From a virus: a stretch of DNA of 25,407 nt. The translations under genes and the position numbers were made by a program. Every line of letters begins with the position of its first letter. The stretch's first letter is position 1. Location of the stretch: the IMG/VR virus record IMGVR_UViG_3300042305_001518, positions 1 through 25,407 of that record. One strand, written 5' to 3'. Below, piece after piece: positions 5,669 through 25,405 of this stretch. Below the pieces are notes generated by a model. It made no database searches. It was not told the DNA's origin and saw only the letters and a program-made list of their open reading frames with translations.

Positions 5669-7168
5669 ATGGCTACACTCACAAAAGGACAAACATTTGC
5701 CAGCGGCGACACCGTCACGGCGACCAAACTCAACAACTTGGTCGATGCGGCCACCATAGCCAACATCGTCAACGCCGACATCGGCGCTTCGGCGGCTATC
5801 GCTCACAGCAAACTGGCCAACATTACGGCTGGTCAGGTGCTTCTTGGCAACGCAAGCAATGTGCCAACGGCAACAGCTCTCAGTGGCGATGTCACGGTCA
5901 ACAGCTCAGGCGTCACAGCTATTGGGTCCGGTGTGATTGTGGATGCAGACATCAACGCCTCGGCGGCCATCGGATTGAGCAAGCTGGCAACCGGCGCTTT
6001 GCCAACAGCCATCACCGTTGCCTCGGCCAATCTGGTAGACGGCACCATCGTCAATGCGGACATCAATGCCTCCGCTGCGATTGCTCACACCAAGCTGGCA
6101 AACATAACTGCTGGTCAGGTGCTCATGGGAAATGCCAGCAATGCCCCAACCGCCACGGCACTCTCCGGTGACGTTACTATCAACAGCTCTGGCGTAACCG
6201 CTATCGGCTCCGGCGTGATCGTGGACGCCGATGTCAGCGCATCGGCCGGTATTGCGCACTCCAAGCTCGCCAATATCACAGCGGGCCAAGTGCTAGTGGG
6301 CAATGCAACAAACGTCCCGACCTCAACAGCTCTGAGCGGTGACGTGACGGTCAACAGCTCCGGTGTCACCGCTATCGGCGCAGGCGTGATTGTTGATGCC
6401 GACGTGAGCGCATCGGCTGCGATTTCATTGAGCAAGCTGGCGACAGGAGCATTGCCAAGCGCCATCACCGTGGCATCGGCCAACATTGTCGATGGCACGA
6501 TTGTAAACGCGGATATTAGCGGATCGGCGGCTATTGACCACAGCAAGCTCGCCAACATTACCGCTGGAAGCGTGCTGATTGGCAATGCAACAAACGTCCC
6601 TACCGCAACGGCGGTTACAGGTGACGTAACTATTAGCAGCTCCGGCGTGACCGCCATTGGATCGGGCGTTATCGTCAACGCGGACATCAGCGCTTCGGCG
6701 GCCATTGACGGCAGCAAGTTGGCAACGGCCGCACAGCAAGCCCTTGTTCCAGCTGGAGCCGTGATGGCCTTTGCCATGAATAGCGCTCCGAGCGGATGGT
6801 TGGCGGCGGACGGTAGCAACGTCAACCGCACCACCTACGCCGCACTCTTCACCGCCATCGGCACGACCTACGGCGCGGGCGACGGCAGCACGACATTCGC
6901 CTTGCCCGATCTACGCGGCTACTTCGTGCGCGGTAGCGGAACTAATAGTGACGGCACGGCGGCTGGGACGTTTGGGACGAAACAGGCGGACGAATTAAAA
7001 AGCCACCTACACACTCACGAGCCGGGGGCGGCAGCGGGAGCAGCGAGCGGCGGCAGCTTTACCGCCCAGCGCACGGACTTACTTACAACGGCGATTAACA
7101 CAAGCTCAACCGGCGGAACCGAAACCCGCCCGAAGAACATCGCCATGCTGTATTGCATCAAGTTTTAA
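5669..7168 (+). CDS. Tail fibre with repeated shaft units and C-terminal tail-collar domain
   Basis: The protein is 499 residues. Residues about 25-350 consist of near-identical repeats built from ADI-ASAAI-HSKLANITAGQVL, GNA-NVPTATALSGDVT and NSSGVTAIGSGVIV, interrupted twice by an LSKLATGALP-AITVASAN insert. This is a typical beta-helical or beta-prism fibre shaft. Residues about 360-425 (VPAGAVMAFAMNSAPSGWLAADG through FALPDLRGYFVRG) are a phage tail collar domain (Pfam PF07484 type). The C-terminus ends ETRPKNIAMLYCIKF, the classic end of collar-containing fibres. It is expected to be a trimeric fibre attached to the tail. The gene lies 2 bases after the nozzle-like gene. Confidence 0.85.
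   Translation: MATLTKGQTFASGDTVTATKLNNLVDAATIANIVNADIGASAAIAHSKLANITAGQVLLGNASNVPTATALSGDVTVNSSGVTAIGSGVIVDADINASAAIGLSKLATGALPTAITVASANLVDGTIVNADINASAAIAHTKLANITAGQVLMGNASNAPTATALSGDVTINSSGVTAIGSGVIVDADVSASAGIAHSKLANITAGQVLVGNATNVPTSTALSGDVTVNSSGVTAIGAGVIVDADVSASAAISLSKLATGALPSAITVASANIVDGTIVNADISGSAAIDHSKLANITAGSVLIGNATNVPTATAVTGDVTISSSGVTAIGSGVIVNADISASAAIDGSKLATAAQQALVPAGAVMAFAMNSAPSGWLAADGSNVNRTTYAALFTAIGTTYGAGDGSTTFALPDLRGYFVRGSGTNSDGTAAGTFGTKQADELKSHLHTHEPGAAAGAASGGSFTAQRTDLLTTAINTSSTGGTETRPKNIAMLYCIKF
5760..6720 (+). repeat. Imperfect tandem coding repeats in the fibre gene
   Basis: At least four copies of a unit of roughly 170-190 bases are visible. They are recognisable by the coding blocks for SKLANITAG (starting near 5803, 6090, 6259 and 6546) and by GGCGTGACC-like runs encoding SGVTAIG. 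Copies differ mostly at synonymous or conservative positions. The repeats encode the fibre shaft and could expand or contract by homologous recombination. Confidence 0.8.
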
Positions 7169-7189: not shown

Positions 7190-8947
7190 ATGGCAAAAAG
7201 AACACCAGCCCGCCGCCAACCTGCAAGGCGCCGTCCGCGTGGACCGCAGCAGGGAAGTAACATCAGCGCCCCACAGATCGCCCAAGAAGGCCGCGGCCTT
7301 GCCGCTGACAATGTCGGCTTCATCAACCAGAACCTACCGGCGACCGCCAACAACTTCAACGCGATCCAGCAGGCACAGATCGACGCGCAGGCTGGCCGGT
7401 TGGATAACCGCTTCACGCAATCGGCCATCGACGCTGGGCAGAACGTCATGGGCCAATCGCAAGCTCTCGGCGGGCTTGGCTCGCTGGCCTCCGCGCTTGG
7501 CGTTGGCAATATGATATCTGGCCCAACGCGCTCCGAGCGGCAACTTCAGCGCCTTGGACAGCAGGCCATGGGCGTGCGCGCCGACCAAGTAGTTGCACCA
7601 ACCAACGTCCGCGAGGTTGCCGCTCAGAATGTCTCTGGCGCCCAGCTTGGCGCAGTGCGCGACGTGTCGGCAGTCAACGCCGACCGCGTCAGGAATGTCA
7701 GGGCCAGTAATGTCGGTCAAGGCCAACTTGGATCTGCCCTCATGCAGCAGGCCATCAACCGAGCCAGCAGCAACGGAATGCTCTCGCCAGAAGCGTCACG
7801 CGATGCAGTGCAGGCGGCTCGCCAAGGCATGGCAGCGCGCGGTCTGGCTACCGGAGGCGCCGGAATGGCCGCCGAACTTCTCAACCGTGACCGCTACTCG
7901 CGCGCCCGCATGGCCGAAGACAATGCGTTTGCCGCTGCCGTCCAACAGCAGGACATTGCCCGCCAGTTCAGCAATGTCGGCAACCGCTTGCAGGCATCAT
8001 TGGCCAACCAAGGCGTGGCGGCGCAGCAATCATTGGCCAATCAAGCGGCGGCGATGGACGCCCAGCGCCTCAACCAAGGCACCGACCTTTCCATTGCACA
8101 GGCTGACGCTCAATTCCAGCAGCAAGCCAACTTGGCCAACCAAGACGCCGCCATGCGCGCCGGTTTGGCCAACCAGCAGCGCGACCAGTTCCTTGGGCAA
8201 ACGTCCATGGAAGCCCAGCGCCTCAATCAAGCGGCCAACATGCAGCAGACCGACGCAAATCGCTCGTTCATGCTGAATGCCAACAACGCCGTCAACCAAG
8301 GGATGCTCAATCGCCAAAACTTCGGCATGGGGCAGCTTGGTCTTGGCGCCAACCTCTTGGGCAACAGCGCCACGATGGGCATGAATTACGGCAACTACAT
8401 GACGAACCTTGACCCCTACTCCCGCGCCATGAGCGCCGGTATCAACATGGGTCAGTTCTCCGGCGGTGCCGCAGGCAACATGCTCGGCGGACAGCTCGGC
8501 GGGATGATCGACCTGTCTGGTAATGCAGCGACGTTTAATACGAATCGTCAGGACAGCCTTTACAATAACTATCAGAACAATCGGGCGGCGATGCGCTCTG
8601 CGAATATACAGGCGGGTGCCATGCGTGATGCAGGCATGATGAACATGATTGGAGGGATTGGTAGCGGACTGCTGGGCGGCGCGGCGCTCGCCTTCTCAGA
8701 TAAGCGCATGAAGAAAGACATCAAGCCGCTCGGCAAGGCTGGCAGCATTCTTGGTCTCACCGCTTACGAGTTCAGCTACAAGGGCGAGGACAAGAAGCAC
8801 AAGGGCTTCATGGCGCAGGACGTTGCGAAGGTGTTGCCGGAGGCTGTCGCCGAAGTCGATTACAAGGGCAAGAAACGTCTGGCCATCAAGCCAGCGGTCA
8901 TCGGCGCCGCCCTCGCTGAAGAATTGATGGCTGCGAAGGCGGCTTAA
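7190..8947 (+). CDS. Virion protein with C-terminal S74 intramolecular chaperone/auto-processing domain
   Basis: The protein is 585 residues. It opens with a very basic stretch (ARRQPARRRPRGP). Most of residues 25-480 is rich in Ala, Gln and Asn with repeated AQRLNQ, LANQ and QQ motifs, predicting long helices typical of internal or ejected virion proteins. Residues about 503-585 start SDKRMKKDIKPLG and continue HKGFMAQDV and LPEAV. This is the peptidase S74 domain, with Ser503 and Lys508 as the expected self-cleavage dyad. S74 domains guide trimer folding and are then cut off. A 13-residue hydrophobic Gly/Ala stretch (GLLGGAALAF) precedes the cleavage point. The gene is followed by other internal-virion-type genes. 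Confidence 0.75.
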   Translation: MAKRTPARRQPARRRPRGPQQGSNISAPQIAQEGRGLAADNVGFINQNLPATANNFNAIQQAQIDAQAGRLDNRFTQSAIDAGQNVMGQSQALGGLGSLASALGVGNMISGPTRSERQLQRLGQQAMGVRADQVVAPTNVREVAAQNVSGAQLGAVRDVSAVNADRVRNVRASNVGQGQLGSALMQQAINRASSNGMLSPEASRDAVQAARQGMAARGLATGGAGMAAELLNRDRYSRARMAEDNAFAAAVQQQDIARQFSNVGNRLQASLANQGVAAQQSLANQAAAMDAQRLNQGTDLSIAQADAQFQQQANLANQDAAMRAGLANQQRDQFLGQTSMEAQRLNQAANMQQTDANRSFMLNANNAVNQGMLNRQNFGMGQLGLGANLLGNSATMGMNYGNYMTNLDPYSRAMSAGINMGQFSGGAAGNMLGGQLGGMIDLSGNAATFNTNRQDSLYNNYQNNRAAMRSANIQAGAMRDAGMMNMIGGIGSGLLGGAALAFSDKRMKKDIKPLGKAGSILGLTAYEFSYKGEDKKHKGFMAQDVAKVLPEAVAEVDYKGKKRLAIKPAVIGAALAEELMAAKAA

Positions 8948-10522: not shown

Positions 10523-13500
10523 ATGCCGCCAAAAATACTCACGGCGGAACAGGTCGCAGAGATTGATCGGCAGCAGCAGAAGCCGGTCAATTGGAGCGCC
10601 GTAATTCCGCAAAAGGAAGACGTTCTGACCGCCCGCGTTAACCGCGAGGCGGCGCGTCAGGATGCTCCCCCTATACTGACGGCCGAGCAGACTGACGCTG
10701 CAGAGGCGCAGAACAGCGTGGCGGCTGAGACGTCTTTTGGCCGCGCCATGGGCGCTCGACCTGACCGCTCGGTCGGTCCTCAAGTTCCTGCTCCCAAGAA
10801 GGTGCTTTCCGCCGCGGAGGTAGACCAAGCGGACTACGAGCGGGTCGGCAACATTTCCTACGTTCCCACTAAGGACGAATGGAAGCGCTACAGCGAACTG
10901 CGCCAGCGCCGCGATGACAAGGTCGGCAAGTTCATCGAGGCGGGCCAAGCAATAGCTGGTGGTCTTGTTCAAGCGGCGGCGGCGACCGCCTATGCGCCCT
11001 TTGACTTTGTAACCCGCGGCACAAAAGCCTATGACGAATGGGTCAATTCCTCCGCGGAAGGAATGCGCCAAGCCAGCATCAGCACCGCCGAGCTGTGGTC
11101 ATGGGCCGGTGATGTCGTCAATGATAGCGTCCGAGAGACCGAGCGCGTCAACATCATCGACAACCAACTGCGCCAGCGACTCGCCGCGGAGAACAAGTTC
11201 ACCGGCAACGCTCAGGCCGACGCGCAGATTTTCGCTCAGGCCAGAGAGCAGGCCATGGCGTCCGGTGCCTACGAAAAGACGCAGGAGCAAGAAGCGAGCG
11301 ACGAGGACACCCAATACCAGCGCTTCGTCCGCGACCGCTCGTTCCAGCAGCAGGCGGCGAACGTTACTGAGACCAACATCGGCACGCTGCCGGACGGCCG
11401 CGCGGAGATGGGCATCGATGAGTCGAAGCTCAATCAGGGGTTAGTCTTGGCCAGCGCCCTTGTTCTCGACCCGCTCAATATTGCCATCCCTGCAGGATTG
11501 GGTGCAGCAAACAAAGTGCGCCTATTGCGCCGCGTTAGCAGCTTGGCAGGCAAGCCACTGAAACTTGGAAGCAAGGTTGCCGGTGGAGCTGCACAGAAAG
11601 CGGAGAACCTTTACTCCGGCATCGTGGAGCGCGTCGAGGGTGCAACCGGCATCGGAGAAGCCGGACAGGCCGCGGCACTCAGCGCTGTATCGTGGAAAGC
11701 GGCAGCAGCCATGGCCACGCTTAAAGGCAGTGGCAAACTGTTGCGACGCGCGGAGCGAGGGCTTGAAACCGGCAGCATCCTCGCCCGCGAGATCGGCATC
11801 GGCGGTGTCGGTGCATCGCGCGTTGAAGCGGCGAGCAAGCTGCGCAGCGCTCCCATCCCTGAGCGCTACCGCCGTGCTTACGATGGCTTTTTCACTTCCG
11901 CGGACAGCACACTGCGCCGCGTCAGCGAGACGCAAGGGCTTTCGCCCATCGCACGCCGGTCGGCCGCAACGCTCGACAAGCTGGGCGCCACGCAGGCATT
12001 CCGCCTAGCCGACGACGCAGTGAGCGGGGCGGTGGCGACGGCGCCCATCGCTGTGCCGCTGGCAGCCATTGCGCCCGAAGAGCGCCAGCCGGAGATCCTT
12101 GGCGCGATCATGACTGTCGGCGCCGGTGCCGGTGTGATCGGCGGCAAGATGCGCCGTATGTCGGAGTTCGATGACGCGCTGGTGGCCAAGATGCTGGCCG
12201 ACGCAGAGATCTCCGGCGGCGACGCCACATCGATGGCCAACATGATGCCGCACGACAAACTGGTCAACATGGCTCGCATGCAGTCGGTCATCTCGCCCAA
12301 GGCGGATTTCATTCCCCTGCGCGCTACGGACTACGAGATCAACACTACGGTCAAGGAAGCTATGGGTCTCGGCACTCGCGGCATCTATGTTGACGCCAAG
12401 AAGGGCCAGCGCCCGCGGATCTTTGTTAACCTAGACAAGATGGCGACCGGCGACGTGGCTGGCCATGAGATCGGCCACGCTATCCTCAAGAGCGACATCC
12501 TCGGCGGTGAGGTGAAGCGCGGCATGCGCGCCATGGTTGACCAGCAGTATGGCACCGATGGAGTCGCCGCCCGCGGACGCGAATACGTCACAGCGAATCT
12601 CACGCAGGAGGTCCGCGATGGCACGACCGGCATCCAACTTGGCGTGCTCAAGCCTGATGAGGTGACACGCATCGCCGCGGCCGGTGGCGACGAAGCGGCC
12701 GAGCAGGCGCTGAAGAATGAGTTTATCCGCGAGCGCTGGGCCAACGACACCGACTGGCGCAAGCGGGCCATCGAAGAGCGCGCCGACATGCTCAACCAAG
12801 AGCGCTTGGCGCAGGGTGAGATCTCTTGGGACTGGGCGCGCGACGAGATTGCAGCGGAGACATTCAGCGGGCTTGGCAGGGGTCTGAACCTTTCCGGCAT
12901 CCGTGCCAGTGGTCCGCTGAGTCGCGCGGTTGGCGCCGCCTCTGCAGGCTTCGAGGCGATGGGCGCTCGGATGCGCGGCAACGGACGGCTGGAGACACCC
13001 AACCGGCTCTTCGTGGAGAACCCGCTCTTCGACACGCCGGAGATGCGCAAGGCGGTCAACAACTACGTCAAGACCTTCGACCGCTATCTGGTCGGTCTGG
13101 AAAAGGAAGGCGCCGTCAAACAGCGCGGGACGCCGATTGCGCCGACCGGCAAGGCTCAGGATGCGGCGCGCAGTCCGCACACGCGCACCTACAGCAACCG
13201 CAACGGCACCGTCATCGAGAGCGACCTCTTCATTGAGCAGCCGGACGGCACGCGGGTGCCGAAGTCGCAGCAGCAGCTCGACACTCAAGAGAAGGTCAGG
13301 GCGGCGACCATCAAGTCGATCAACGACCGCACCAAGTTCGTCAACGAGAACAGCGACGAATGGGGCGCGCGGAAGTTGAGCAATGGTCGCGTCGAGGTTG
13401 GTGGCCCTACCCTTCCGCTGCAGTTCGACCACTTTGTCCAAGTGCCGGAGTGGCTGCGCAGCAAGGCCCGCGAGTTCGAGGCCGGTCGCTCCAAGGGCCG

Positions 13501-16500
13501 CAGCTACCTCTACAGCTACAACGCCATCGGCACCGGCGAGGCCGGAAGCTACAAGATCAAGAACCTCGGCAACGTCGAGGCCAAGACCGGCGAGATGGTT
13601 CCATTCGGCTGGGCGGTCTCCACCAAGAACCACCTGCTGGCCAAGGTCATCGATCTCAACTCGTTCCGCGCCGCGGCGATCCGCGCTATCGACAACGAGC
13701 AGCTCGGCGAGTTTGGCAACGACCTTCGCGCAGTGGAGTCAGGCTTAAAACAGCTTCTCAGCAACTACGAAAACGGCGTGGCCGGTGAAACCGGACTCGG
13801 CGTGACGCGCAAGAACATCCTCAACGGACTGCTCGGCACCGGCACCGTCGTCCAAAAGGCGAGCAACCCTGTGTGGCACACGTTGAACAACCAAGGCAGC
13901 GTCCGCACGTTCCGATTCGACCGGCTCAACTATGCCGACCCGCACGGCACCGGCTACTTCCCGCACTACAACAAGATCAACATCAACGCGCTGCCGGACG
14001 ACGCCGGTCGCATGTCGCTGGATCAATACGGACAGTTCGACGCCGACCGCAAGGCGGCTTGGATGAACAAGGAAGCGGTTAAGCGCGGCTTTACCAACGC
14101 GACCAATTGGCAGAACGCTGACGCGCAGGGATTCCAAACGGCGGATGGGCAGTATCGGCAACAGTTTCCGGCGGGTGGTGCGGCGCAGCGTGGAAGCGCG
14201 TTGCCGGATGTCGCCGTTGTTCCCGAAAGGTTTACCGGCTCTGGCGATGAGGCGGGTCGGCGCTCTCGCTTTGTTCCGCCCCCTGCTTTTTTCAATAGAT
14301 TCGCAATCGAGTCATACGAGCGCGGGGGTAAATTTTTTGACGCAAGCACAGGCGACGATTTGACAGGAAAAACATTCTCGTCTGGCTTCATTGATGTATC
14401 AACAGGCAAGCCGAGATTGTTTGTAGACAATCCGTCTTCCGATATAGGCATTGGCAACACCTATAAAACGAACCTGTTTAAGCAGAGGGCGGGATGGAAG
14501 TGGATATCCGACAATGCGCCAGAGACTTCTACCATAGTTTCCGTTGAGGGCGGGGGCCGACACGTTTATTCGCTGCGCTCTGATTTTGGCGGCGGCGTCG
14601 CGCTTGCAAGGTATTCAGACAAGGCAAGCGAGCCGCGCCTGCGACCCACAGCGAAGGGCGACCTAGTGCTCGGTCAAGAAGTTGGTCGCATAAGTATTCG
14701 CGGAAAAGAGCATCCGGTGTACGACAGCGTTCGTGTTCAATCGCGCACGCCTAGCGGACAGGGTGCGAGAGGTCAGGCGCTGCCTGACAACGAGCCGCGG
14801 ACGCTGCGGGACATGCCGCAATCAGCGCTGAAGGTTTTGCACGCAGACAGCGACGTGCTGCCAAAGCCTTCCAAGAAGCTAACCAACGCCACGGTGGCGC
14901 TGACGCTGGCGGACATCGCCGAGAAGCACAACGGCGGCATCATCACCAGCAGCAACATCACACAGGAGCAAAAGCTGGACCTGATGCAGATCGGCGCCGA
15001 TGAAGCAGAAGCCGCGCTCAAGGCCAGTGGGAAAAATGCGGGCAACTGGTATTCGACAGCAATCCAAGCAGCGCTTGGCATCGCTGGCGTCATCTACCGA
15101 GAACTGTCGGACGTTGTAACTGCGCGCAAACACGCGGTGCTGGCGAAGGAGGCCGACCCAGTGCGCGCCGGTCAATTCGCGCTCAGGCTGCCGCTCGCCA
15201 TTACCAGCCAGAACATGACAGTGAAGCTCAACACCAGAGCTTCTAATGAGCAGTTCAAAATATTTCTCAACACCGGCAAGTTTGACCCAAGCATTGCCTA
15301 CGGCGAAAAAGCCAAGTCGATCAGCGGCAACCTAGACTTGGCCAACGTGATGATCGATGAGCTGGGCAGCGTGCTCGCTCTCGAAGACTTTGTCTCGCGG
15401 ACGTTCACCGTGCGAGAGCTTGAGGCTGAAGCGTCGAAGATTGCCGGACGCAAAATAACCATCGCCGGACGCAAGGATGACATTGTCAATGGTGCTGCAA
15501 TTTTTGGACCCAAGATCGGCCAAGGATTCTTGCAGAATCTGATGGGTAAGTTTGATCCGGTGACCATCGACCTGTGGATGCGACGGACGTGGGGCCGGTG
15601 GACCGGCGACGTAGTCGGCGACGGCGTGACCGCGCAGCGGCTTGGGCGCCTCATCGAAGAGTCGCGAAAGGCAGGACGCAAGCTGCCTGATTCAATCAAG
15701 CGCCTGCGCACCACCATGCGAAGCATGGGCGAGACGAAGACCGGTAAGGCCAAGAAGCCGGAGCTGACCGTATCGGAAGACGTCGAAGCGCGCCTAGAGC
15801 AGGACAGCGCCTTCCGCAAAGACGTAGAGGCTTTTGCAAAACAGGCCAACGCTGAGTTCCAAGCGCTCTACCGCATGATGAGCGATGTGATGTCTCCGGC
15901 GCTGTCCAAGAAGGTGCAGGAAGCTATCGCGCGGGCCGAGAAGCTGCCTGACCAAGCCGATGCAATCTTGTCCGACGTATATCGTGCCGTCATCCGCGAG
16001 CAGACAAAGGTCAAGGCGCAGCTAGACAAGGGCTGGGACTCGATGTCGCTGGACAAAAAGAAAGAGCTGAACGCGCAGCGCTCTCCTGAGTTTGCCAAGC
16101 TCAAGGGTGATGACAGGGCCGCATTGATCAAGCAGTCCAAGCCGATAGCAAAGGGCGATTGGCTCGAAGCGCAGCACGAATCTGCCGGTCGGACGGCCAA
16201 GCTGGACAACCCTCAGAAGAACGCCATCAAGCCTGCTTGGGCCAATGCAGCCAAATCCATCGTCTCGGAGCTTAACCCGATTGACATCCCCAGCGACATG
16301 GACCGCCGCGTCATTACGGAGGTGGTCAATGGTATCCGCGAGGAGCTAGAGCGCCGCGGGTTGAGCGTGACCAATGCGGACGTGCAGGCAATTTTGTGGT
16401 ATCCTGAGAAAGACCTGTGGGCTAAATTAAGGGGAGAAGAAGAGTCCATATTGAAACAAAGCTATGACGACGAATTCATCAGCATCGCGGAAGGACTTGG

Positions 16501-16549
16501 CCTCGGCCAAGAGGCCCGCCAAATCGCAAAGCAGATCAGAGGCTATTGA
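10523..16549 (+). CDS. Giant (2008 aa) ejection/polyvalent-type virion protein with zinc-metallopeptidase motif
   Basis: The protein is 2008 residues. The N-terminal 100 residues carry three copies of an [IV]L[TS]A[EA][QE] motif (residues 5, 51 and 94). Hydrophobic Gly/Ala-rich stretches lie around residues 312-333 and 503-545, suggesting membrane interaction. Residues 648-652 are HEIGH, the HExxH zinc-metallopeptidase signature within DVAGHEIGHAIL, and Glu775 or Glu779 (DEIAAETF) could be the third ligand. An AT-richer module lies at about 1217-1423. The C-terminal third has FDPVTIDLWMRRTWGR (from 1677) and DVQAILWYPEKDLW (from 1953), motifs I associate with very large phage proteins delivered with DNA. 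It is probably packaged in the virion and injected, so it may act in the host cell. Peptidase substrate unknown. Confidence 0.8.
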   Translation: MPPKILTAEQVAEIDRQQQKPVNWSAVIPQKEDVLTARVNREAARQDAPPILTAEQTDAAEAQNSVAAETSFGRAMGARPDRSVGPQVPAPKKVLSAAEVDQADYERVGNISYVPTKDEWKRYSELRQRRDDKVGKFIEAGQAIAGGLVQAAAATAYAPFDFVTRGTKAYDEWVNSSAEGMRQASISTAELWSWAGDVVNDSVRETERVNIIDNQLRQRLAAENKFTGNAQADAQIFAQAREQAMASGAYEKTQEQEASDEDTQYQRFVRDRSFQQQAANVTETNIGTLPDGRAEMGIDESKLNQGLVLASALVLDPLNIAIPAGLGAANKVRLLRRVSSLAGKPLKLGSKVAGGAAQKAENLYSGIVERVEGATGIGEAGQAAALSAVSWKAAAAMATLKGSGKLLRRAERGLETGSILAREIGIGGVGASRVEAASKLRSAPIPERYRRAYDGFFTSADSTLRRVSETQGLSPIARRSAATLDKLGATQAFRLADDAVSGAVATAPIAVPLAAIAPEERQPEILGAIMTVGAGAGVIGGKMRRMSEFDDALVAKMLADAEISGGDATSMANMMPHDKLVNMARMQSVISPKADFIPLRATDYEINTTVKEAMGLGTRGIYVDAKKGQRPRIFVNLDKMATGDVAGHEIGHAILKSDILGGEVKRGMRAMVDQQYGTDGVAARGREYVTANLTQEVRDGTTGIQLGVLKPDEVTRIAAAGGDEAAEQALKNEFIRERWANDTDWRKRAIEERADMLNQERLAQGEISWDWARDEIAAETFSGLGRGLNLSGIRASGPLSRAVGAASAGFEAMGARMRGNGRLETPNRLFVENPLFDTPEMRKAVNNYVKTFDRYLVGLEKEGAVKQRGTPIAPTGKAQDAARSPHTRTYSNRNGTVIESDLFIEQPDGTRVPKSQQQLDTQEKVRAATIKSINDRTKFVNENSDEWGARKLSNGRVEVGGPTLPLQFDHFVQVPEWLRSKAREFEAGRSKGRSYLYSYNAIGTGEAGSYKIKNLGNVEAKTGEMVPFGWAVSTKNHLLAKVIDLNSFRAAAIRAIDNEQLGEFGNDLRAVESGLKQLLSNYENGVAGETGLGVTRKNILNGLLGTGTVVQKASNPVWHTLNNQGSVRTFRFDRLNYADPHGTGYFPHYNKININALPDDAGRMSLDQYGQFDADRKAAWMNKEAVKRGFTNATNWQNADAQGFQTADGQYRQQFPAGGAAQRGSALPDVAVVPERFTGSGDEAGRRSRFVPPPAFFNRFAIESYERGGKFFDASTGDDLTGKTFSSGFIDVSTGKPRLFVDNPSSDIGIGNTYKTNLFKQRAGWKWISDNAPETSTIVSVEGGGRHVYSLRSDFGGGVALARYSDKASEPRLRPTAKGDLVLGQEVGRISIRGKEHPVYDSVRVQSRTPSGQGARGQALPDNEPRTLRDMPQSALKVLHADSDVLPKPSKKLTNATVALTLADIAEKHNGGIITSSNITQEQKLDLMQIGADEAEAALKASGKNAGNWYSTAIQAALGIAGVIYRELSDVVTARKHAVLAKEADPVRAGQFALRLPLAITSQNMTVKLNTRASNEQFKIFLNTGKFDPSIAYGEKAKSISGNLDLANVMIDELGSVLALEDFVSRTFTVRELEAEASKIAGRKITIAGRKDDIVNGAAIFGPKIGQGFLQNLMGKFDPVTIDLWMRRTWGRWTGDVVGDGVTAQRLGRLIEESRKAGRKLPDSIKRLRTTMRSMGETKTGKAKKPELTVSEDVEARLEQDSAFRKDVEAFAKQANAEFQALYRMMSDVMSPALSKKVQEAIARAEKLPDQADAILSDVYRAVIREQTKVKAQLDKGWDSMSLDKKKELNAQRSPEFAKLKGDDRAALIKQSKPIAKGDWLEAQHESAGRTAKLDNPQKNAIKPAWANAAKSIVSELNPIDIPSDMDRRVITEVVNGIREELERRGLSVTNADVQAILWYPEKDLWAKLRGEEESILKQSYDDEFISIAEGLGLGQEARQIAKQIRGY

Positions 16550-16940: not shown

Positions 16941-16980
16941 CATGCTTGCACTGTGAATTTTGCCATGTCATGAGTGCGGC

Positions 16981-18102
16981 ATGGAAACCACGCACACGAT
17001 CAAAAGCAGCGCTCTCACCGGAGCCATTCACAAAGTCGGCAACTCCCCATTTTGGCAGCTCAAATTCTACCACCCTAGCGACCGGAAGCGGAAGCGGGTC
17101 AGCCTCGGCACCGAAGACCTTGCGCTGGCCAAGGTCAAAGCCAAGGTCATCCTCGATGACACCGCGGCCAAGGGTATCGCCGCCCTGCGCGATCACGCGC
17201 TGCGCGACAACTCGGAGACTATTGGTGCGGCGATCCGTCATTACGAGATGGTCAGCAAGATCAATAGCAGGCACGAAAATGTCAATTGTATGCTCCGGTT
17301 CCTGCGATGCGCGCTCGGCACCGACGACGTCGAGGCCATCAAGTCCAAGCCGCTGTCGATCCTGACGCCCGCGCTCATCTCGAAGTACCAGCGCAACTAC
17401 AAGGGCAGCCCCTACTCCGTCCGTACCAACCTCGCCTCGACGCGCTCGATCTTCGCACACTCCCTCGAATGGGAAGGCTTCGAGCTGCCGGACAACATCG
17501 CCACGTTTTGCGCGGCCACGACCGGCATGAAGGCGCCGGTCAGCACGTTCGTGCGTATCGCGCCGGAGATCCTCGAAAAAATGGACGCTTCGAGCAAGGC
17601 CATGGGCGGGTCCGTCCGCCGCGCGTATTTACTAACTCGATACCTCGGTATGACCCCCTCGGAGTGTGCCGCCTGCCGCAAGTCATGGATCGAGGACCGC
17701 GAGGACCGGAAGGTCATCGTGATCATCGAGCGGCCGGAAGAAGGCGTCACGCTCAAGACCGGCCACAATCGCGGCAGGGTCATGAGCCTACCGGAGTGGA
17801 TGTCCGCGGAGCTGCTCGATGTCGAGGGCGACTACCTCATCACCGGTAAGACCTTCGAGGCGCGCAAGAGATTCATGGAGCGGATGTTCAATGCGTGGGT
17901 CCGCGAGTTCATCCCCGACCGGCGCTCGGCAGCTTACGAGCTGCGACGTCAGGCCGGTTCCGACATGTTGAACGCGACCGGCAAGATCTCGCTGGTGCAG
18001 CACATGCTCGGCCACACCAGCCCCCAGACGACGGCGAGATTCTACGCGGTGTACGACCGCGAGGTGGACGTCGCGTCAGTCTGGGATAAGTCCAGTAATT
18101 AG
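16981..18102 (+). CDS. int: Tyrosine recombinase / phage integrase
   Basis: I prefer the ATG at 16981 (373 residues); a TTG at 16960 would add 7 residues. An N-terminal arm-binding type domain (FWQLKFYHPSDRKRKRVSLGT, short beta strands) is followed by a helical core-binding domain and the catalytic domain. Visible catalytic elements are the beta-hairpin lysine in TLKTGHNRGRV, Arg322 in YELRRQAGS, His345 in MLGHTS and the nucleophile Tyr355 in TTARFY. The first catalytic arginine position, normally in a GLRxSE motif, reads GMTPSE, so Arg I appears to be Thr. The usual box II His is Tyr. It should catalyse insertion and excision at the adjacent tRNA-Thr core. Confidence 0.88.
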   Translation: METTHTIKSSALTGAIHKVGNSPFWQLKFYHPSDRKRKRVSLGTEDLALAKVKAKVILDDTAAKGIAALRDHALRDNSETIGAAIRHYEMVSKINSRHENVNCMLRFLRCALGTDDVEAIKSKPLSILTPALISKYQRNYKGSPYSVRTNLASTRSIFAHSLEWEGFELPDNIATFCAATTGMKAPVSTFVRIAPEILEKMDASSKAMGGSVRRAYLLTRYLGMTPSECAACRKSWIEDREDRKVIVIIERPEEGVTLKTGHNRGRVMSLPEWMSAELLDVEGDYLITGKTFEARKRFMERMFNAWVREFIPDRRSAAYELRRQAGSDMLNATGKISLVQHMLGHTSPQTTARFYAVYDREVDVASVWDKSSN

Positions 18103-20880: not shown

Positions 20881-21030
20881 ACGTCCGCAAACGTCCGCCC
20901 AAGTCCTCACGATGTCAACACCGGCCCATGCGCCGGACATGGGGTCTTCACCCTATGACGCACGCTCCCCAAAAAAAAGATTTGCACGCCGGTCCGCATT
21001 GTGTGCACCTTTGCATACGCCATTACTTTT
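20881..21030. promoter_or_regulatory. Divergent regulatory region
   Basis: This 150-base gap contains ACGTCCGC twice with 10-bp spacing (20881-20888, 20891-20898). TTTGCA-type repeats occur in TTTGCACGCC near 20981 and TTTGCATACGCC near 21010, and GTGTGCAC lies near 21001. On the minus strand TTGACA lies near 20914-20919 but lacks a matching -10. A rightward pair TTGTGT-N17-ATTACT is weak. The repeats are plausible binding sites for the two flanking regulators. Confidence 0.4.
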
Positions 21031-21222
21031 ATGACCACACCTCTTGTACTAACTGTCACCGAAGCGGCTAAAGCCGTCCGCTGCCGCCGCACCGTCCTCG
21101 AAAACTATATCCGCACCGGAGAACTCACCGCGTTCAGCGTGGGCGGACAACGAGGGACGCGCATCTCTCACCGCGCGCTCGAAGCCTTCATGCAGAAGCG
21201 CGCCCTGCGCACCAGCAAGTAG
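21031..21222 (+). CDS. Excisionase-like MerR-type DNA-binding protein
   Basis: This 63-residue protein reads MTTPLVLTVTEAAKAVRCRR, continues TVLENYIRTGELTAF and SVGGQRGTRISHRALEAFM. It matches the short winged-helix DNA-binding domain of excisionases and MerR-like regulators (helix 1 TVTEAAKAV, recognition helix RRTVLENYIRTGEL, wing GTRISHRA). Small size and position opposite the repressor-like gene suggest a directionality factor (Xis) or Cro-like regulator. No strong ribosome site precedes the start. Confidence 0.72.
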   Translation: MTTPLVLTVTEAAKAVRCRRTVLENYIRTGELTAFSVGGQRGTRISHRALEAFMQKRALRTSK

Positions 21223-23513: not shown

Positions 23514-23667
23514 CCGAATACTATGTCCAGAATGTATAATGGAGCCACAGCGATTAACCCCTCGCACATTCCTCTGTACAGAGGGGGGGGGAGGGGGTCT
23601 GAGTTGATTTTTTCTTCGCAAACCCCCGACCGGTAAGCCGCCGCAAAATTTTTTCCAAAAAACACCC
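23514..23667 (+). promoter_or_regulatory. Regulatory gap with promoter-like box, palindrome and G-run
   Basis: A perfect TATAAT (23535-23540) lies 21 bases after the previous stop, though no clear -35 is seen. It is followed by a 14-bp perfect palindrome CCTCTGTACAGAGG (23571-23584), running into a G9-A-G5 tract (23583-23597), then T- and A-rich stretches. The next gene has no recognisable ribosome site. This looks like a controlled promoter for the replication module. Confidence 0.5.
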
Positions 23668-24144
23668 ATGCAAAACCTCATCGAAAAAGCCAAAGCCGCC
23701 TTCAAGCCCCAACCCCAACCCGCCCCCAAGCCGGTATCCGGTCCCAATCCGGTGTCTGAACCGGTAGCCGCCCCGCCGGTCGAGCCGGTGGCGGCCGCGG
23801 AGCCTAAGCCGGACACCAACCTAGTCGCCGCCCCCAAGTCAGCCAAGGAGCTGGCCGAGGAGACTGCGCGGCAGGTTGGCATTCTGCAGGGCGACGAGTT
23901 CTCCAACATCAAGCTCTGCAAGGCGCAGACCCCGCGAAACTCGCACATGCTGCACATCGAGGGCGTGCCGCGGTGGAACGTGCGCGCGATCTGCTGGGTG
24001 AAAGACGCTGAGAGCTGGAAGCCGGTCTGCCCGCCGCATGACACGCTAAGGGTTAAATACACCGGCATAGCCACGACGGAAGGTGTCCTGCAGTTTGAGT
24101 CCTCGGATATCTCGAAGCGGAATCGCTTGAGGAGGGCACAGTGA
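23668..24144 (+). CDS. Hypothetical protein with proline-rich linker (158 aa)
   Basis: The product is 158 residues. A short N-terminal helix (MQNLIEKAKAAFK) is followed by a Pro/Ala/Val-rich linker (about residues 14-58) with repeated PV-EPV units. A compact C-terminal domain starts near residue 70 and contains LCKAQTPRNSHMLHIEGVPR and NVRAICWVKDAESW. The linker suggests two tethered functional parts. The stop overlaps the GTG start of the initiator-like gene (GTGA, 24141-24144). Close coupling suggests a replication role, but no domain is recognised. Confidence 0.6.
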   Translation: MQNLIEKAKAAFKPQPQPAPKPVSGPNPVSEPVAAPPVEPVAAAEPKPDTNLVAAPKSAKELAEETARQVGILQGDEFSNIKLCKAQTPRNSHMLHIEGVPRWNVRAICWVKDAESWKPVCPPHDTLRVKYTGIATTEGVLQFESSDISKRNRLRRAQ

Positions 24145-24980
24145 GCGTCGCCGCGACTACATGGGTATGGGGCGACAGCAAGGCTCAGGGCGCTGACCTC
24201 TTGGTTCTCCTCGCCTTGGCCGATTATGCGGACGAGCACGGCAACTGCTACGCGAGCTGGGCGAAGCTGCAGTCAAAAACCCGCCTGTCGCGCAGCACGG
24301 TGATCCGCTCGCTGCGCCGCTTGCAGGAATCCGAGCAGCTCGAAGAGATAAAGAAGGGCTTTCGCCGGACGGCCGGTGACGGCGTGCAGGCGACCGTTTG
24401 GCGCATCGCAGGGATAGGTGTCAGCGCGACACCGGTGTCAGGAAGACAGGTATCAGAAAGACACCCAAGTGGTGTCAGCGCGACACCTAAGCGGTGTCTT
24501 TCTGACACCCCAACTATAAGAACATATAAGAACAATACTTTAGGTGACACTCCGGCGACTCCGTCGCCTTCGCATCCTCCCAAAAAGGTCGTAGCAGCAA
24601 CCGGCGCCCCCGAATCCAAACCGCGCAAGGCCAAGGTCGAGGGCATCGAATCTTGGTCCGCCGACCGCCCCCTGCCCCACAGCGTTGGCTTCCGTCAATG
24701 GTGGGGCGAGTTTGTCGAGTTCCGCCGCGGTAAGATTAAGGGTCGTCATCACCCGCTGACCGATCAGGCCGCGCGGATCATTCTCGGCGAGCTGGCCGCG
24801 GTGAACGAGTGGCAGGCGGTCGAGGCGATCAAGACCGCGATTGCGAGCGGCTACATCAAGCCATGGGTGGACAAGTTCCGCGGCAAGAATGGCGCCGCGC
24901 CGGTTGCCCCTGCCCCGCAGCGCTCCGGTCCCAGTGCCCTAGAGCGCAGCCTGCAGCGCGCAAGATTGGAGGCGGCATGA
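24141..24980 (+). CDS. Replication initiator, lambda-O-like organisation
   Basis: The GTG at 24141 has GAGGAGGG upstream and overlaps the previous stop. The protein is 279 residues. An N-terminal winged-helix domain (residues about 15-72, ADLLVLLALADYADEHGNCY, then ASWAKLQSKTRLSRSTVIRS and LRRLQ) resembles the HTH_36 family of phage and plasmid initiators. A flexible linker (about 93-134) is encoded by iterons. The C-terminal domain (182-247, FRQWWGEFVEFRRGK through IKPWVDKFR) is of the type that recruits helicase or helicase loader. This is the arrangement of phage lambda O, where the origin lies inside the initiator gene. Confidence 0.78.
   Translation: MSVAATTWVWGDSKAQGADLLVLLALADYADEHGNCYASWAKLQSKTRLSRSTVIRSLRRLQESEQLEEIKKGFRRTAGDGVQATVWRIAGIGVSATPVSGRQVSERHPSGVSATPKRCLSDTPTIRTYKNNTLGDTPATPSPSHPPKKVVAATGAPESKPRKAKVEGIESWSADRPLPHSVGFRQWWGEFVEFRRGKIKGRHHPLTDQAARIILGELAAVNEWQAVEAIKTAIASGYIKPWVDKFRGKNGAAPVAPAPQRSGPSALERSLQRARLEAA
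24417..24509 (+). repeat. Five iterons: replication origin inside the initiator gene
   Basis: Five 17-bp units follow GGTGTC-N5-GACACC. They lie at 24417-24433 and 24471-24487 (identical, GGTGTCAGCGCGACACC), 24434-24450 (imperfect, right arm GACAGG), 24449-24465 (left arm GGTATC) and 24493-24509 (inverted spacer). Two units share two bases. Each unit is itself an inverted repeat, suggesting binding of initiator dimers. Confidence 0.8.
24515..24534 (+). repeat. AT-rich tandem repeat, probable DNA-unwinding element
   Basis: TATAAGAACA occurs twice in tandem (24515-24524, 24525-24534) within an AT-rich run ending near 24541, in an otherwise GC-rich gene. It begins 5 bases after the last iteron. 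Iterons followed by an AT-rich direct repeat are typical of theta-type origins. Confidence 0.7.
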
Positions 24981-25405
24981 CTGCCGCCCAAACGGAACCA
25001 TCGTCCTGCCGCAAGGGCGACATGGCTGAAATGCTTTTTGCCGCTGGCGCGATTGTCCACGACTGGGAGATCTACATGCCCTTTGGCCACGCGCAGACGA
25101 CCGATGTTTGCCTGCTAAGACCGTGGACGACGCCAATCAAGGTGCAGGTCAAGACGGCATGGTGGGATGCGTCGCACCAAAGCTATGCGGTGTTTGTAAG
25201 GAACGGCAGCAAGCAGGCTTACGCCTTTGGAGACTTCGACGTCCTTGCGGCATACCTGTCAGACATCAATCAGTTTGTTTTTTGGGCGTTTTCCGACATC
25301 AGCGGCAGGCAGAAAATCCGTTACTCCCCAGAGCGGCACCGGAAGCCAAGCAATTGGGAACTGCTAGACGATGTCGCAAAATCCCTCGCGCGTCCTAATA
25401 ACTGA
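24977..25405 (+). CDS. PD-(D/E)XK-family nuclease
   Basis: The ATG at 24977 overlaps the previous stop as ATGA, and AGGCGG precedes it. The complete 142-residue product starts MTAAQTEPSSCRKGDMAEML. It has the hallmarks of the PD-(D/E)XK fold found in Holliday-junction-resolvase-like and group I intron nuclease families (PDDEXK_5 type): Glu18 in GDMAEML, a core strand with Asp43 (GHAQTTDVCLL), and Gln57-x-Lys59 in IKVQVKTAWW. Expected role is metal-dependent DNA cleavage, perhaps in recombination or replication. Coupling to the initiator gene supports a DNA-processing role in the early module. Confidence 0.72.
   Translation: MTAAQTEPSSCRKGDMAEMLFAAGAIVHDWEIYMPFGHAQTTDVCLLRPWTTPIKVQVKTAWWDASHQSYAVFVRNGSKQAYAFGDFDVLAAYLSDINQFVFWAFSDISGRQKIRYSPERHRKPSNWELLDDVAKSLARPNN

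Follow-up and report, generated by a model that had tools for sequence, protein, structure and literature searches.

The window analysed here, a 25,407-base linear fragment, makes up an entire IMG/VR record. Close to its end, on the plus strand, lies a gene for a predicted replication initiator (24141..24980, 279 amino acids), which starts with GTG and has a 4-nt overlap with the stop of the preceding ORF. A Pfam profile search assigned residues 18-63 of the protein to HTH_36 (PF13730, E 3e-10), and PHROG families of replication initiation and O-like proteins matched it with a best E value of 1e-16. The protein is laid out as a winged helix-turn-helix (wHTH) domain, a disordered linker and a C-terminal region. 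The N-terminal winged helix (residues 1-90, 24141..24410) contains the Pfam match and was modelled by AlphaFold2 in the order H-H-E-H-H-E-E, with pLDDT of about 70-80 across most residues; the helix limits of the model place the predicted recognition helix at residues 51-63 (24291..24329). Residues 95-180 form the low-confidence stretch of the model, which we read as a disordered linker. In the C-terminal region (24642..24977), helices are weakly predicted (mean pLDDT 49) and a Pfam search gave no match; the region is 87-96% identical among relatives that differ in wHTH domain and iterons, and it may be the part that contacts a helicase or helicase loader. The next gene (24977..25405, plus strand) encodes a PD-(D/E)XK endonuclease-like protein (PDDEXK_5, E 1.4e-10) and falls outside the proposed origin. 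The same order of initiator and endonuclease genes is found in a relative, L006, where a gene for a DnaB helicase (PF03796, E 2e-84) lies 1.3 kb downstream. The window also encodes a tyrosine integrase (16960-18102) and an excisionase-like HTH_17 protein (21001-21222), which mark a temperate phage.

Within the linker-coding DNA of the initiator gene, five 17-bp palindromes of the form GGTGTC-N5-GACACC fill the 93 bases from 24417 to 24509. Iterons 1 (24417..24433) and 4 (24471..24487) share the sequence GGTGTCAGCGCGACACC, are exact and lie in codon phase 0; iteron 2 (24434..24450, GGTGTCAGGAAGACAGG) has two mismatches and iteron 3 (24449..24465, GGTATCAGAAAGACACC) has one, both in phase 2; and iteron 5 (24493..24509, GGTGTCTTTCTGACACC) is exact and in phase 1, all given on the plus strand. 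The original prediction of five inverted repeats in 93 bases, two of them sharing bases, is thus borne out, with the qualification that only three units are perfect; the shared bases are the two common to iterons 2 and 3. Start-to-start distances are 17, 15, 22 and 22 bp. The spacer of iteron 5, TTTCT, is the reverse complement of that of iteron 3, AGAAA, so that the two spacers are inverted relative to each other. When three mismatches were allowed, the whole window contained 11 units against 11 expected, and it is their clustering that is unusual. When the codons of the initiator gene were shuffled synonymously 20,000 times, five mutually matching palindromic units appeared in 5 of the shuffles; they appeared in none of 20,000 Markov resamplings, where the largest number was 3, and the best count elsewhere in the window was also 3. 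No DnaA-box-like site with at most one mismatch was found around the initiator gene.

The array is followed by an A-rich tract (24512..24545, plus strand; 76% AT), the AT maximum of the gene and a proposed DNA-unwinding element. Its AT value is attained by about 0.01% of the 34-mers of the window, and the most AT-rich 30-mer of the initiator gene (80% AT) begins at 24513. The tract contains TATAAGAACA twice in tandem at 24515-24534, so that the AT-rich dip with a tandem repeat described earlier is present as stated. The placement of the repeats between the parts of the gene that encode the HTH and C-terminal domains is likewise supported.

Repeated DNA in a linker-coding region could in principle be a by-product of a repetitive protein linker, and GVSATP-like motifs are indeed repeated in the linkers. 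In the window, however, all three codon phases are used, the five units lying in phases 0, 2, 2, 0 and 1 and being read as GVSATP, VSERHP-like and CLSDTP peptides, a sign of selection at the DNA level; the rarity of such an array in synonymous shuffles also speaks against a protein-level origin. Comparison with a close relative, L011, contradicts it further: palindrome arms differ at 0 of 58 bases and the remaining array bases, comprising spacers and inter-unit bases, at 11 of 35 (P 7e-6), while 8 of the 31 amino acids encoded by the array have changed. Because the arms are invariant while the amino acids change, the array is conserved at the level of DNA rather than of protein. The alternative anticipated at the outset, that the repeats would be kept in related phages only as amino acids, fails on this comparison, and we regard the by-product explanation as hardly credible.

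A protein search yielded 11 full relatives of the window initiator, and those with a window-type wHTH domain carry a window-type array. Three others, L010, L012 and L013, have wHTH domains only 65-68% identical to that of the window next to C-terminal parts that are 87-96% identical. At the equivalent place L013 contains GGTCTC-N5-GAGACC palindromes, and L010 and L012 contain palindromes with GGACC-type arms. Differing wHTH domains are thus paired with differing iterons at unchanged place and spacing, beside near-identical C-termini. Because a diverged wHTH domain goes with other palindromes beside a near-identical C-terminus, the winged helix and the iterons behave as one cassette that is swapped between phages. 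The GGACC-type cassette was found with two C-terminal classes, the second of which came from a wHTH-based scan.

To these relatives we added scans of IMG/VR by DNA alone, in which two close palindromes of a strict pattern were required. The GGTGTC-N5-GACACC pattern returned 27 stretches and its GGTCTC version 39, compared with none for a scrambled control palindrome with the same base composition; relaxed palindrome patterns gave at least 120 matches. Among the matches listed, 263 arrays were pooled from the DNA-only scans, a few of them from GTDB genomes; 237 lay within an ORF, 207 lay directly 3' of a wHTH domain in one ORF, and 56 had no wHTH domain by the wHTH profile, some of these being truncated contigs or diverged proteins. 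For the family anatomy we used 95 non-redundant clusters among the matches listed. Across these clusters arrays have a median of 4 units, with spacing peaks at 21-23 and 17 bp, and start about 21 amino acids past the wHTH domain; the AT-rich side lies downstream rather than upstream (P 1e-8), there is more A than T in 88 of the 95, and in 80 of the 95 the units fall in two or more codon phases. GTGTC palindrome arrays in L055, L059, L061, L062, L066 and L071 have no long initiator ORF over them and are possibly intergenic origins or operators for the same type of protein.

The specificity of such a cassette is proposed to reside in the recognition helix. We compared the initiators of 39 GTCTC and 57 GTGTC clusters among the matches listed. 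Residue 52 is A in 32 of the 39 GTCTC clusters, and S (40) or R (10) in the 57 GTGTC clusters (z 26); residue 55 is F, A, Y, H or C in the former and I, L or Q in the latter (z 12), and all other alignment columns in these matches stay at or below z 4, which is evidence against a signal of phylogeny alone. The wHTH tree is too weak to support a formal phylogenetic correction, and contains only one supported independent pair. An iteron-blind set was made up of 73 HTH_36 genes from the phylum of G013 (398 genomes), a small sample for co-variation. Arrays at the floor P value occurred in 14 of its 69 testable genes against 1.1 expected, many genes having no clear array, and GTCTC arrays were found in 3 of 6 genes with A52 versus 0 of 66 others (P 3e-4). 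In the blind set together with isolates, R56 coincided with C at base 5 in 7 of 7 cases versus 0 of 5 (P 0.001); R56 is present in 203 of 207 pattern-selected initiators among the matches listed versus 33 of 76 initiators when the blind set and isolates are combined. The co-variation of residues 52, 55 and 56 with iteron bases is therefore in part confirmed in the iteron-blind sample. In the window these proposed specificity residues are S52 (24294-24296), I55 (24303-24305) and R56 (24306-24308), all encoded on the plus strand, and the co-variation suggests that they contact the corresponding bases, with residue 52, aided by 55, reading base 3 and residue 56 reading base 5 of the GTxxC half-site. 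We consider it quite likely that HTH_36 initiators form a large class with palindromic iterons of their own, and that a recognition-helix code would predict the iteron, and hence the origin, from sequence: A at residue 52 would specify GTC and S or R would specify GTG, residue 55 would contribute, and R at residue 56 would specify C at base 5. HTH_36 genes in L360, L383 and L362 are accompanied by TCTGA-type palindromes at other spacings and would add iteron classes that the GTxxC code does not cover.

Taken with the gene context, these features point to a lambda-type intragenic iteron origin, at which an HTH_36 initiator would bind the array, melt the A-rich tract and hand over to the helicase; we give this reading a probability of roughly 0.86. 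The N-terminal winged helix would bind the five iterons, probably as one dimer per palindrome, on DNA that doubles as the code for the disordered linker of the same protein. Stacking of the protein on sites spaced by 22 bp, roughly two turns of the helix, would strain and melt the A-rich tract just downstream, and the conserved C-terminal part would recruit a replicative helicase, either a phage-encoded DnaB or that of the host. With binding specificity placed in the recognition helix, the winged helix and iterons could therefore move between phages as one cassette. We infer dimer binding, melting and helicase recruitment because the anatomy matches features of the lambda and Stx origins and because DnaB is encoded in L006. 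The complete origin described at the outset is likewise a prediction. Cumulative GC skew lends it no clean support: in five longer linear relatives the skew drops at the initiator from positive values to negative ones, the reverse of what the leading-strand rule usually gives, and the signal is confounded with gene content; the window itself is a fragment.

Two other functions for a winged-helix protein and its palindromes were weighed. The protein could be a transcription regulator and the palindromes its intragenic operators for auto-repression rather than an origin. Its fold is a generic winged helix: a Foldseek search of the PDB returned only winged helices of generic type, all above E 1e-3, led by MarR- and Fur-family regulators that are not significant matches. 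The profiles that the protein does match belong to replication-initiation families, the arrays of the 95 clusters among the matches listed lie in the gene body by an A-rich tract and not at a promoter, and a replicative helicase gene lies downstream in L006, all of which make this reading unlikely. Still less probable is that the array serves in partition or as a centromere-like element, with a TubR-like winged helix as its binding protein. TubR has a similar fold and was the sole sequence-level PDB match of the initiator (E 0.41, not significant); against this, a neighbouring ParM- or TubZ-type gene was not noticed, the phage encodes an integrase, and replication-type profiles dominate.

The lambda-type origin reading can be set against origins of known phages. 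In lambda and Stx phages, the iterons bound by O are 19-bp inverted repeats located within gene O next to an AT-rich tract (PMC7466680). Each lambda iteron is described as being bound by O as a dimer, and the N-terminus of O as binding DNA and its C-terminus as binding P, joined by a flexible linker (PMC6022878). As in the window, the inverted-repeat iterons of lambda (J02459/NC_001416) and Stx phages lie in the linker-coding part of their own initiator gene, and an A-rich tract lies 3' of them. The annotated lambda iterons (J02459) include TCCCTC-AAAAC-GAGGGA, a 6-N5-6 dyad like that of the window, and lambda iteron 1 has the core CTCAAAACGAG in common with GGTCTCAAAACGAGACC of L013. The systems differ in that lambda O belongs to PF04492 (Phage_rep_O, E 6e-36), a family with no Pfam profile match in the window initiator, which is a PF13730 protein; in the outer bases of the iterons; in iteron number and spacing, with four in lambda at 20-24 bp and five in the window at 17, 15, 22 and 22 bp; and in the gene that follows, the loader gene P in lambda and an endonuclease gene and then DnaB in L006. 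The wHTH profile scored an unconvincing 0.3 bits against lambda O. In both the window initiator and lambda O, the N-terminal part matches PHROG 678, and remote common ancestry is therefore possible. Of the original prediction that the iterons are unlike those of lambda and evolved independently, the difference in outer bases holds, while the shared 6-N5-6 geometry and PHROG 678 match make independent evolution one possible history beside remote common ancestry.

Among isolated phages, Salmonella phage ST64B (Sb42) and Psychrobacter phage vB_PmaS_Y8A also encode a PF13730 wHTH domain followed by 6-N5-6 palindromes in linker DNA. Their iterons differ from those of the window, being of GTGCA/GTGAA type in ST64B and GTGAC type in Y8A, and in Y8A the gene after the HTH_36 initiator is annotated as replication protein P. 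In PotUPM1, TC7, LPPA33 and D65, no clear array of 6-N5-6 form came out of a simple scan. The window initiator protein itself matched none of the isolated phages; GenBank phages gave no match to the initiator (tblastn) or to the array (blastn), and a GTDB search with a full-protein alignment of the initiator returned no relative. Phage P1 resembles the window in that oriL is a proposed origin within the initiator gene repL, where synonymous changes in the AT-rich part impair replication; it differs in its initiator, and that report does not use the word 'iteron' (PMC9948254).

An intragenic-iteron origin is thus of a kind known from lambda and Stx phages, here with the lambda layout carried over to another initiator family, and the new part would be the winged-helix/iteron code; neither this iteron type nor the code was found in the literature searched, mostly outside subscription journals. 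If it extends to the wider class, the code would allow origins to be located from sequence in many uncultured phages and prophages, and would explain how origin specificity changes, the wHTH domain and iterons moving jointly while the C-terminus stays. The system would also be a compact natural case of a protein-DNA recognition code, suited to swap experiments.

Elsewhere in the window, a G-rich tract (23580-23599), in which one A interrupts a long stretch of G, occupies an intergenic position before the replication genes. An ORF of 2008 amino acids (10523-16549) has no Pfam match at E 1e-3, contains a HEIGHA stretch (HExxH-like) and possibly encodes a giant virion-associated protein. At lower coordinates lie genes for a tail-collar protein (5669-7168, PF07484), the long N-terminal half of which is repetitive (NADISASAAI...SKLA units), and for a protein with a C-terminal Peptidase_S74 intramolecular chaperone domain (7190-8947).
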